Virus record (IMG/VR): IMGVR_UViG_3300046010_005483
Coordinates: 1 to 33,833 of that record
Length of the DNA stretch: 33,833 nucleotides
DNA from: a virus
Strand: one strand, 5' to 3'
The position numbers and the translations under genes are program-made. The notes under the pieces are model-generated. The model made no database searches, was not told the DNA's origin, and was given only the letters and a program-made list of their open reading frames with translations. Within the stretch, counting starts at the first letter, position 1; each line of letters opens with the position of its first letter. This document shows positions 22,992 to 28,559 of this stretch, piece by piece.

Positions 22992-23129
22992 ATGATACCA
23001 TTAATAGCAGTAATATTGTACGTTTTAACGATATATATTTTATGTAAAGGTATATTTGCTTACAATCGCAGAATAAACCGCTTAAACGAGCTAAAAGAAG
23101 TAAAAAACACATATAAACCAAAGTTATGA
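22992..23129 (+). CDS. small single-pass membrane protein, 45 aa
   Basis: Starts MIPLIAVILYVLTIYILCKG, one membrane helix, followed by a basic cytoplasmic tail rich in Arg, Lys and Asn. It follows the previous stop by 4 bases and overlaps the next ATG (ATGA at 23126). Function unknown. Small early membrane proteins of phages sometimes block superinfection or alter host membrane proteins. Confidence 0.6.
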   Translation: MIPLIAVILYVLTIYILCKGIFAYNRRINRLNELKEVKNTYKPKL

Positions 23130-23515
23130 TAATAGATCAATTGCACAATCACGTTCATAATTACGTTATAAATCAAAATTCTTTCTTTGAAGTTTGCCCT
23201 ATTCCTTTAAATGATTTGTTTGGAAAGACTAAATTGCACTCAGTAGCTACGTGGCGAAGTGTTGGAATGGTATGGATGAGACTTTCAGGACTTACACAAA
23301 CACAAGTTGGTGAAATATTCAATAGACATCATTCAACTGTCGTTTACGCTGAACATTCAATGCTTGATGCCTTCGATGGTTATAACCCGCAATTGAAAGA
23401 AAAGTTTGATTTGGTGCTAAATTTCGGTAAAGAAACTTGCGTAATCAATGAAGATTTAAATATTAACTTAGTTAACTCACTTTTAACACTTGAAAATCAT
23501 GCTCAAAGGATTTGA
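23126..23515 (+). CDS. DnaA domain IV-like DNA-binding protein
   Basis: A 129-residue protein whose core (about residues 30-85) looks like the C-terminal helix-turn-helix of DnaA: SGLTQTQVGEIFNRHHSTVV then YAEHSM, matching the DnaA signature (a hydrophobic helix, then R-x-HSTV and a following A-H). It lacks the AAA+ ATPase domain. It could recognise DnaA-box-like sites at a phage origin or promoter. It lies between two copies of a 70-bp promoter element, each containing a near-DnaA box, which makes autoregulation plausible. The domain match is strong by pattern. The target is inferred. Confidence 0.75.
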   Translation: MIIDQLHNHVHNYVINQNSFFEVCPIPLNDLFGKTKLHSVATWRSVGMVWMRLSGLTQTQVGEIFNRHHSTVVYAEHSMLDAFDGYNPQLKEKFDLVLNFGKETCVINEDLNINLVNSLLTLENHAQRI

Positions 23516-25721: not shown

Positions 25722-25742
25722 TTCTAATTAAAAAATAATAGT

Positions 25743-25750
25743 TATATTTG
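25743..25750 (+). promoter_or_regulatory. Bacteroidetes promoter (-7 TATATTTG) for a structured RNA
   Basis: TATATTTG, 22 bases after the lipoprotein stop, in a very AT-rich stretch. No clear -33 TTG at the ideal distance. The predicted start near 25755 precedes a structured, non-coding segment ending in a terminator. Confidence 0.7.
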
Positions 25751-25754
25751 TTGA

Positions 25755-25850
25755 GTAGTTCGAGTCTCAAACATAGTGAACTTAAAGAAATTGAAACCTT
25801 ATCAATGACGTAGACGTGAGACTCCTACAGATTTGATAGGGTTTTTTTTA
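25755..25850 (+). ncRNA. structured phage RNA with own promoter, terminator and possible pseudoknot
   Basis: An about 95-base segment between a TATATTTG promoter and a T8 run, with no convincing reading frame. Two helices are visible. Helix A: GAGTCTCA (25762-25769) with TGAGACTC (25817-25824), 8 bp perfect. Helix B: 25794-25805 with 25833-25844, about 12 bp with one G-U, directly followed by T residues. Their order is A, B, A', B', so they can form a pseudoknot, or compete so that A-A' formation affects the terminator hairpin. It could be a free small RNA or an attenuator for the gene at 25871. Confidence 0.65.
25794..25849 (+). terminator. terminator of the structured RNA
   Basis: Stem AACCTTATCA (25795-25804) with TGATAGGGTT (25834-25843), extended on both sides, then a T run to 25849. 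The 27-base loop is long for a terminator and contains the partner of an upstream helix. Confidence 0.7.
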
Positions 25851-25870
25851 TTATTAAAAATTAATTATTT

Positions 25871-26059
25871 ATGATTTACAAATTAAAATGTGCAAACAGT
25901 AGAACAACTTCAATGGAAGTTGAAAAAATTGATGAAAATCATATTAGCATTTCTATTTCAGATTTTGATGAAAAAAATATGCTTATGTTATATATAGATA
26001 AAGAAGATCTTTATTATTTGAAGGGTATTTTGCATTTATTACATAAAGAAATGGAATGA
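25871..26059 (+). CDS. hypothetical protein, 62 aa
   Basis: Function not recognised. A small beta-alpha protein (KLKCANSRTTSMEVEKID, SISISDFDEKNMLMLYID, then a helix LYYLKGILHLLHKEME). It starts 21 bases after the terminator-like hairpin of the structured RNA, so its expression may depend on read-through. Its end overlaps the DUF6291 gene as ATGA, linking it to the replication genes. Confidence 0.6.
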   Translation: MIYKLKCANSRTTSMEVEKIDENHISISISDFDEKNMLMLYIDKEDLYYLKGILHLLHKEME

Positions 26060-26760
26060 TTATGGCAGAAGATAAAAAAGGATTTTTATTGTATGCTGAT
26101 CTAATACATACAATTGAAAAAATGCCAAATGATAAGGCTGGTTTATTATTTAAACACATACTAAACTATGTAAATGATTTGAATCCTGTAACAGATGATT
26201 TGATAGTTGAATTGACTTTTGAACCTATTAAACAACAGTTAAAACGTGACTTATTAAAATACAAAGAAACTAAAATTGACAAAAGCAATGGTGGTAAATT
26301 AGGTAATCTTAAAAGGTGGCATAAAGATTTACACGACAAAGTTGTTAAAAATGAGTTAGATATAAATGAAGCGTTAGAAATCGCTAACAATCGCAAAACA
26401 TCGCATACCGACACTATGCAATCGCAACCAATCGGACAAATCGCTGTTAATGTAAATGATAATGTTAATGTAAATGATAATGTAATAAATAATAATATAG
26501 ATGCACGCAAAATAAATTTTGCTAACTCTTTAAAACCTTTTTTAGAAACCTATGGTAAAGAATTATTAAATGATTTTTATTTGTATTGGTGTGAACATGG
26601 AGAAAAAGATAAAAAGATGAGGTTTGAAAAAGAAAAATCATTTGATATTAATTTAAGACTTTCAAGGTGGTTTAAAAATGATAAGAATAATCAAAAGAAA
26701 CCAGGTGTAATAATAGAAACAGAAGAACAAATGTTAAAACGTAGATTTGCGAAATCATGA
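26056..26760 (+). CDS. DUF6291-like replication initiator / helicase-loader protein
   Basis: A 234-residue protein (232 if the ATG at 26062 is used). Residues about 5-85 match the DUF6291 pattern (FLLYADLIHTIEKMPNDKAG; LLFKHILNYVNDLNPVTDD; RDLLKYKETKIDKSNGGKLG), common in Bacteroidetes phages beside primase-helicase genes. Residues about 108-150 are a low-complexity linker. Residues about 155-220 form a C-terminal module (LLNDFYLYWCEHGEKDKKMR, FDINLRLSRWF) typical of phage replication proteins. It overlaps the helicase gene by 4 bases. By analogy with lambda O it may bind origin repeats and recruit the helicase. The DNA encoding its linker holds a repeat array resembling an origin. Confidence 0.7.
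   Translation: MIMAEDKKGFLLYADLIHTIEKMPNDKAGLLFKHILNYVNDLNPVTDDLIVELTFEPIKQQLKRDLLKYKETKIDKSNGGKLGNLKRWHKDLHDKVVKNELDINEALEIANNRKTSHTDTMQSQPIGQIAVNVNDNVNVNDNVINNNIDARKINFANSLKPFLETYGKELLNDFYLYWCEHGEKDKKMRFEKEKSFDINLRLSRWFKNDKNNQKKPGVIIETEEQMLKRRFAKS
26380..26515 (+). other. candidate replication origin: phased ATCGC iterons plus AT-rich tandem repeat
   Basis: ATCGC occurs at 26380, 26390, 26400, 26421 and 26440, with ATCGG at 26431, so spacings are 10, 10, 21, 10 and 9 bases, close to one helical turn. The copies fall in all three codon frames, so the repetition is in the DNA and not in the protein. Directly downstream lies an 18-bp perfect tandem repeat (26446-26463, 26464-26481) and an AT-only run suited to strand opening. 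It lies inside an initiator-like gene, as in lambda O. Confidence 0.65.
26446..26481 (+). repeat. 18-bp tandem repeat, two copies, AT-rich
   Basis: GTTAATGTAAATGATAAT is repeated exactly at 26446-26463 and 26464-26481. Being a multiple of three it also gives a VNVNDN amino-acid repeat. Its composition suits a DNA-unwinding element next to the ATCGC motifs. Confidence 0.9.
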
Positions 26761-28559
26761 AAGAATTTATAGAATGGAATACTTTACCATTAAAAAGATA
26801 CAAAGGTAAAGAACCGATACGATGCCCAAAGTGTGATGAACACAGAAGTGATAAAAAAGATAAGTCACTAAAAATAGACCACGATAAAGGGTTTGGAAAT
26901 TGTTTTTATTGTAAAGCTTTAACTATTCGAGATAAAGCAGAAAATATTTACAAAGAGAAAACATATACATTCCCAAAGCAAGAATGGAAAAACTATACTA
27001 ATTTGCCTGATAAACTTGTAAAATGGGTGTGGAGTGAAAGAATGATTAGTCAAACTACTTTAAAGCAATTTGAGATTACACAAGAAGAAGTTTATTTTCC
27101 ACAAACACAAAAGAAACAAAACGCAATAGTGTTTAATTACTTTGAGGGTGAAACGTTGGTTAATAAAAAATATAGAGGAGTTGCCAATATTAATGGAGAA
27201 ACAAAAAAACTTTTTACTTCTCATCCTGGTGGCAAGCCTATTTTTTATAATATCAATTCAATTATCGGTTTAGATGAATGTTACATTGTAGAAGGTGAGT
27301 TTGATGTATTAGCATTGTACGAAATAGGAATTAAAAACGTTATAAGCCTTCCAAATGGTGCAAATGATAACGATGATTTTTGGATTCATTCAGAAAAATA
27401 TTTAAAAGATGTTAAAAATTTTATTATTGCTACTGACAACGATGAAAAAGGAATTGAAGTTAGAGAAAAGATTGCTCAAAGATTAGGGCGTTACAGATGT
27501 ACTTATATTGAATTTGATAGTAAAGATGCAAATGACGACTTAAAAAGTGGTAAATTAAGCCACGTAATGAACGATCGTAAGCATTTTAATATAGGAGGAA
27601 CGTTTACAAGTTTTGATTTGTTAGATTCAATATTAAGACTAAAAGAAAAAGGATTGCCTGATACAATTTCACCAAAGAAATCTGTTTTTGGTAATTTAAA
27701 AGAAACATTTTCTATTATGATGGGTCAATTAACTACCATAACAGGTATACCTTCGCATGGAAAAAGTAGTTTTTTGGATTGGTATTTACTTAATTTAATT
27801 CACGAATACGGATATAAAGCTTCTATTTATTCACCTGAACATAATCCACTTGAATTATTTGCCACAAAACATATTCAATTAGCAGTTGGAAAACCTTTTT
27901 ATGGTGAAAATTCGTGTACTGATACAGATATTTACAGGTTTATTGAATGGTCAAGAGATAAGATGTATTATACAACTCAAGAACAGGATAAAGCACCTGA
28001 TTGGGATTGGTTATTTAATAAATTTGAAGAACAAATGTTTACCTATGGTATTAATATGTTTGTGATTGACGCCTGGAATAAAATTCAAATGCCAAAAGGA
28101 TTAGGAGGTAAAGAAGGTATTGATATTATTTTAACTAAACTTACTAATTTTTGTGTAAAACATAACGTTCATATTTTTTTAGTTGCACACCCTACTAAAA
28201 TGAAAAAGGATGCAAATGGAGATTATGAAATGCCAACTTTGTACGATGTGAGTGGATCAAGTGATTTTAAAAACCAAACTCATAATGGATTTACAATTTA
28301 TAGACAATTTGAAACAGATCAACAACCAGGATTTACAATGTTTTCAAATCAAAAAACTAAATTTTCTTTTCAAGGTAAAATAGAAGGATTAGTGAGATTT
28401 AATTATCATATACCAACAGGTAGGTATTATGTAGATGGTAGTATTCCTGATAATTTTGATTTAACTTTGAATTCATTTATTGAAGAAAAACCGCAAATTG
28501 AAGTAACTAATTATTTTGAACCAAATAAAATGTTTGATGATGAAAATTTACCATTTTAA
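26757..28559 (+). CDS. bifunctional primase-helicase (T7 gp4-like)
   Basis: A 600-residue replicative enzyme. The N-terminal zinc ribbon has CPKC (about residue 23) and CFYC (about 50). The TOPRIM primase fold shows CYIVEGEFDVLALYEIG (about 175-191), the ISLPNGAN loop and IIATDNDEKG (about 221-230). The helicase domain has Walker A ITGIPSHGKSS (about 327-337) and Walker B-type NMFVIDAWNKIQ (about 432), RecA/DnaB family. It unwinds the fork and makes primers. It overlaps the initiator-like gene by 4 bases. The acidic end DDENLPF resembles an SSB tail and may bind partner proteins. No phage DNA polymerase gene is seen, so host polymerase is probably used. Confidence 0.9.
   Translation: MKEFIEWNTLPLKRYKGKEPIRCPKCDEHRSDKKDKSLKIDHDKGFGNCFYCKALTIRDKAENIYKEKTYTFPKQEWKNYTNLPDKLVKWVWSERMISQTTLKQFEITQEEVYFPQTQKKQNAIVFNYFEGETLVNKKYRGVANINGETKKLFTSHPGGKPIFYNINSIIGLDECYIVEGEFDVLALYEIGIKNVISLPNGANDNDDFWIHSEKYLKDVKNFIIATDNDEKGIEVREKIAQRLGRYRCTYIEFDSKDANDDLKSGKLSHVMNDRKHFNIGGTFTSFDLLDSILRLKEKGLPDTISPKKSVFGNLKETFSIMMGQLTTITGIPSHGKSSFLDWYLLNLIHEYGYKASIYSPEHNPLELFATKHIQLAVGKPFYGENSCTDTDIYRFIEWSRDKMYYTTQEQDKAPDWDWLFNKFEEQMFTYGINMFVIDAWNKIQMPKGLGGKEGIDIILTKLTNFCVKHNVHIFLVAHPTKMKKDANGDYEMPTLYDVSGSSDFKNQTHNGFTIYRQFETDQQPGFTMFSNQKTKFSFQGKIEGLVRFNYHIPTGRYYVDGSIPDNFDLTLNSFIEEKPQIEVTNYFEPNKMFDDENLPF

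Follow-up and report, generated by a model that had tools for sequence, protein, structure and literature searches.

Phased repeats within DUF6291 genes as a probable phage replication origin, with a repeat motif that covaries with a segment of the encoded protein

We propose that DUF6291 proteins are phage replication initiators, and that the DNA encoding their linker is the replication origin. We regard this reading as very likely, with the caveat that no binding, footprinting or replication data support it. The sequence analysed (the window) comprises the full 33,833 bases of a virus record in IMG/VR. The observations consist of selection at the DNA level, a fixed architecture, covariation between the repeat motif and a segment of the protein, modular C-terminal domains and gene context. 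The initial annotation had already placed an origin inside this gene, which is supported by homologues and by the DNA-level selection. That the array is an origin, and that the DUF6291 protein binds it, is still inferred from the anatomy, the covariation and the gene context.

The gene had been assigned to DUF6291, and Pfam confirms this identity. The match to PF19808 covers residues 7-84 and scores 69.2 bits against a gathering cut-off of 27.2, so that membership in the family is met (coordinates and E-values of the features are given in Table 1). A second in-frame ATG is present at 26056, besides the ATG at 26062. An AlphaFold2 model has a pLDDT of 85-96 over residues 1-90, with helices predicted at residues 12-20, 23-37 and 47-86; the proposed recognition segment is the second half of the last and longest of these. 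Comparison of the fold of the N-terminal domain and of the model with the PDB gave no match at E<=0.001, and the named matches to the model in a viral structure library are mostly other DUF6291 proteins. The linker is of low complexity and poorly structured in the model (pLDDT 42-60 at residues 111-140). The next gene does encode a primase-helicase, as initially annotated. Elsewhere in the window, at 23126-23515, a small protein with the C-terminal DNA-binding domain of DnaA is encoded (PF08299, E=1.6e-8); a gene for this type of protein is also found near the DUF6291 gene in the Cellulophaga phages phi19:3 and phi13:2.

Table 1. Features of the DUF6291 locus, in positions of the window
Feature	Position	Strand	Detail
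DUF6291 gene, proposed replication initiator	26062..26760	+	232 aa; PF19808 E=3.5e-19; phrog_19415 E=2e-57
All-helical N-terminal domain, residues 1-86	26062..26319	+	AlphaFold2 model
Proposed DNA-recognition segment, about residues 66-86, includes GGKLGNLKRW	26257..26319	+	Array sequence covaries
Repeat copy 1, ATCGC	26380..26384	+	
Repeat copy 2, ATCGC	26390..26394	+	
Repeat copy 3, ATCGC	26400..26404	+	
Degenerate inverted copy, CCGAC (CCGAT/GCGAT in homologues L001, L002)	26408..26412	-	Position near -38/-36 conserved across motif classes
Repeat copy 4, ATCGC	26421..26425	+	
Repeat copy 5, ATCGG (ATCGC in homologue L011)	26431..26435	+	
Repeat copy 6, ATCGC, at -6 from AT-rich element	26440..26444	+	
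AT-rich element, 6-bp GWWANW period, proposed unwinding element	26446..26499	+	13% GC
Exchangeable C-terminal domain, proposed helicase contact	26500..26757	+	C-domain clusters of relatives; weak DnaT match E=0.008
Primase/helicase, next gene	26757..28559	+	phrog_239 E=1.8e-87; Toprim_2 E=1.9e-12

The initial annotation described five copies of ATCGC and one of ATCGG occurring in all three codon frames, followed by a perfect 18-bp tandem repeat and an AT-only run. All of these were recovered: the six copies lie exactly where they had been placed, the frames hold relative to the ATG at 26062, the tandem repeat (2.2 copies, 100%) spans 26445-26483 and the run consists of 16 A/T bases at 26484-26499. 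Overlooked at that stage was the inverted copy, which lies at 26408-26412 in the 21-bp gap of the series. The GC content of the AT-rich element falls in the bottom 0.9% of 54-bp windows.

The array is real and far beyond what chance would produce. On the + strand, ATCGC occurs 9 times in 33,833 bases, where about 8.9 occurrences are expected, and five of the nine fall within 66 bp, for which the chance is about 4e-7 for the record. No other helically phased repeat cluster in the record is as strong (the array scores 240 and the runner-up 82), and the array's position ranks first by two different repeat statistics. We further compared the gene with synonymous-codon shuffles, which preserve both the protein and its codon usage. 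The phased statistic is significant in this comparison (p=0.003, and p=0.005 with an earlier version), while the maximum count of a single 5-mer over the whole linker is not, for this gene alone (p=0.22). The latter statistic was dropped in favour of phased-pair statistics, because it has insufficient power in AT-rich DNA (median p 0.19). Since the cruder statistic was not significant and a single gene leaves doubt, we collected homologues. GC skew was discarded as evidence on the origin: it climbs almost monotonically along the record, mirroring gene orientation, and no switch occurs at the array in the record or in three complete phage genomes.

Homologues were drawn from viral contigs (searched with the single protein and with an alignment), genomes and annotated phages, giving 74 non-redundant genes, and statistics were calculated on the 69 that have a recognisable AT-rich element. 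Searching genome contigs with the single protein yielded no relative, and relatives were found with the alignment as query. The gene family is widespread in Bacteroidota phages and is also present in Clostridia. Homologous genes lacking phased repeats had been named initially as a possible refutation; in fact, 66 of the 69 genes have repeats phased beyond synonymous shuffles in the same place, entirely different motifs included. An earlier, stricter 5-mer filter gave 56 of 67. Arrays are weak or unrecognisable in L048, L057 and L059 of this set, and likewise in L143 and L156, and the array is outranked by another cluster of the genome in phages phi19:3 and filifjonk9-1. In Flavobacterium phage 11b, the array (near 34110-34220) ranks first in the genome.

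The architecture of these arrays is fixed. Pooled over homologues, repeats lie 10 bp apart in 416 pairs (53.5 expected) and 20 bp apart in 307 (35 expected), with further peaks at 29-31 and 40-41 bp. The peaks at 10, 20 and 40 bp do not fit multiples of three, as is expected of DNA-helix phasing and not of a repeated peptide. Relative to where the AT-rich element begins, copies lie near -75, -65, -55 and -45; an inverted one follows at about -36 to -38, and then come further copies near -25, -15 and -6. These offsets are constant across subfamilies with the motifs ATCGC, GAAGC, AACCC/AACCT, ATAAC, AAAGC and ATAGC. Directly downstream of the array, GC content drops in 68 of the 69 homologues, and the AT-rich element has a 6-bp period of the form G-W-W-A-N-W, encoding VNVN, VNDN, VTDT, SVSV and similar peptides. 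In the record and at the same place in homologues, the element alternates GTA/GTT/GAT codons with AAT/ACA/ACT/AGT, so that V interchanges freely with D, and N, T and S with one another.

Several known phage origins have the same layout as the DUF6291 locus, with the origin inside the initiator gene. In lambda, gene O has repeated sites for the initiator midway along its length, and an AT-rich region follows them (PMC7466680). The oriL of SPP1, within gene 38, combines direct repeats with an AT-rich unwinding element, and a phage loader and helicase are also needed (PMC6316719). The replisome organisers ORF13 of TP901-1 and Rep2009 of Tuc2009 bind repeat-rich regions of their own genes, which serve as the phage origin (PMC8965321). 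The analogy with lambda, which had been drawn in the initial annotation, holds for the layout, as iterons and an AT-rich region are present inside the DUF6291 gene also. It does not extend to the protein: lambda O carries PF04492 (E=5.7e-36), whereas the record's protein has only DUF6291 and sub-threshold matches. Moreover, lambda has four 18-bp iterons with starts 20-24 bp apart, while the DUF6291 sites are of about 5-6 bp in 10-bp steps, with one inverted, and the next gene in lambda encodes the loader P in place of a primase/helicase (phrog_239). The TP901-1 rep protein has HTH_36 and DnaB_2 domains, and the strongest in-gene repeat lag is 15 bp, not 10. Neither HTH_36 nor DnaB_2/DnaD domains were found in the record's protein at E<=0.1, and DUF6291 is absent from lambda O and TP901-1 rep at E<=0.5. 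Judging from these sequence comparisons, the locus would work like known in-gene origins, but with an initiator domain that is unrelated to the lambda O and TP901-1 rep families.

Initiators that bind iterons often regulate their own operons too, and phased protein-binding sites would suit a regulator equally well. It is conceivable that the array serves as an operator within the gene, through which the DUF6291 protein controls the downstream replication genes, and that the true origin is elsewhere. We consider this unlikely. An operator does not need the AT-rich element that is found at a fixed distance downstream in all motif classes, the array lies inside or after the coding region and not at a promoter, and the layout is the same as that of three documented origins.

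The repeat sequence covaries with one segment of the protein. Similarity of the array DNA (-50 to 0) is correlated with similarity of an 18-residue segment (r=0.59, Mantel p=0.001) that starts three residues past a conserved LKRD motif, at the end of the N-terminal domain. There is no correlation of the array with residues 1-63 (r=0.005, p=0.45), and that with the C-terminal domain is weak (r=0.06) and not significant after accounting for the segment. When the 69 genes are tabulated by segment class and motif, the correspondence is almost one-to-one: GNLKRW occurs with TCGC (24/24), GG[IL]KSG-like segments with AAGC (15/15), GGRP with ACCC/ACCT (8/9), GMxKRW-like segments with TAAC/TAGC (6/6), SAE-like segments with CAAC (10/10) and KRWN-like segments with ATGC/GCGA (5/5, including three that the pattern left as 'other'). 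It is important to consider that the boundaries of the motif classes were drawn post hoc, after inspection of the data, and that homologues share ancestry; the unsupervised Mantel test is therefore the better evidence. Additionally, the segment adjoins the array, so part of the covariation could have arisen from exchange of the two as a unit. Out of sample, on a second set of loci, the classes held for most GGRP-type proteins but not for all (6 of 9 had ACCC/ACCT); two loci of this set come from contigs that had already been sampled (L127 with L120, and L150 with L108).

The same covariation bears on the possibility that the array is a site for host DnaA, for the phage's own DnaA-C-domain protein (23126-23515) or for a partition protein with 10-bp phased sites. 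Partition sites composed of short direct repeats in phase are known, and a gene for a DnaA helix-turn-helix protein lies in the vicinity, both here and in the Cellulophaga phages. However, the motif changes completely between subfamilies, and does so together with the DUF6291 recognition segment. DnaA-box-like sites, allowing up to one mismatch, are scattered in the record, but none lies within the array. A site for any of these proteins is therefore highly doubtful.

Some DUF6291 arrays are not coding at all. Several DUF6291 proteins have only 83-97 residues in genomes that were sampled from the class to which L120, a Clostridia MAG, belongs, and their ORFs end just before the array. In L129, for instance, the array lies beyond the stop codon (...GCATAG AAACGTATAGGAACGTATACCAGCGTATACCACTCTATACCAAACATACC, then GATACTGATA). 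The non-coding arrays of L129, L130 and L146 beat all control windows of their own loci. With the direct-repeat statistic, the array of L132 reaches 0.048 against control windows, and those of L131, L133 and L134, at 0.08-0.15, are no more than suggestive. That the ORF ends and the array runs on as non-coding DNA argues strongly that the sequence is kept as DNA and not as peptide. The initial claim that the repetition is selected in the DNA and not in the protein is borne out by these arrays and by the lag spectrum. The idea that the repeats are a by-product of a peptide linker under protein selection, which the low complexity and low pLDDT of the linker might suggest, is refuted, given that copies of a single 5-mer fall in two or three frames in almost every homologue (in three in the record), that spacings of 10, 20 and 40-41 bp are not codon multiples, that the signal is lost on synonymous shuffling and that arrays persist past the stop codon; such selection may still shape the codon-periodic VNVNDN-type segment. 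As a separate observation, without statistics, DnaA-box-type sequences (TTTTCCACA-like and TGTGGAAA-like) follow the non-coding arrays of L131, L132, L133 and L134, 3' of the DUF6291 stop.

The C-terminal regions of the homologues form 16 similarity clusters, which are found across motif classes. Between the record and L011, identity is 83-100% per 30-nt block up to gene position 420, array included, and 40-67% past this position through most of the remainder. Pfam matches of C-terminal domains include Phg_2220_C (just below cut-off), DUF7833 and the weak match to DnaT. The genes next to DUF6291 usually encode a DnaB-type helicase or primase-helicase (38 downstream neighbours belong to one helicase/primase-helicase cluster) and sometimes a DnaC-like protein, as is the case downstream of the DUF6291 gene in phi19:3 and phi13:2 (annotated COG1484). 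Other downstream neighbours are P-loop-like proteins without a Pfam match.

Two further observations concern the surroundings of replication genes. Upstream of the initiator gene in the record, at 25741-25851, is a probable stand-alone small RNA of roughly 100 nt, which also occurs in L001 (5657-5763), L011 (3932-4036), L164, L167, L169 and L174. It consists, in order, of a promoter-like start (TATATTTG), a pseudoknot and a terminator-like stem with a T run. The 8-bp helix of the pseudoknot varies between phages with its pairing kept (GAGTCTCA/TGAGACTC, GCTCCTAC/GTAGGAGC, GATCTCAC/GTGAGATC and GCTCTCGC/GTGAGAGC), and a comparison with Rfam gave no family at the gathering score. This RNA also precedes replication genes with initiators other than DUF6291. 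Secondly, unrelated-looking initiator genes in L169 (8726-9445) and L174 (683-1402) have linkers such as NADETQTKHKRNADETQT, which suggest, without statistics, that similar in-gene arrays exist in other initiator families.

If DUF6291 proteins are initiators, the most likely mechanism can be outlined; within it, binding by the protein, melting, helicase recruitment and origin activity are all inferred. The N-terminal domain would bind about seven short sites by way of the recognition segment. With sites one helical turn apart and one central site inverted, the bound molecules would be aligned on one face of the DNA. This row of molecules would strain and melt the adjacent AT-rich, 6-bp-periodic element, and the exchangeable C-terminal domain would then recruit or load the replicative helicase or its loader, which is usually encoded next door.

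We also tentatively favour, by a narrow balance, a more general proposal: that DUF6291 is a large family of phage initiators in Bacteroidota and Clostridia whose members share a recognition code. According to this proposal, a segment of about 18 residues sets the repeat sequence, and the layout of sites, with 10-bp steps, a single inverted copy in the centre and a hexamer-periodic melting element, is fixed, whether the array is coding or non-coding. If such a code is real, a swapped segment would re-target the initiator to the origin of another phage.

A literature search found no text naming DUF6291, with subscription journals mostly outside its coverage, and returned no phage origin of this type mapped in Bacteroidota or Clostridia. 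Our reading of the array as an origin gives a testable function to PF19808, a widespread family of unknown function, and, for many phages and prophages in these two groups, predicts the origin base by base. The link between segment and motif provides a natural series for studying how initiators recognise origins, and the non-coding versions uncouple the origin from coding constraint.
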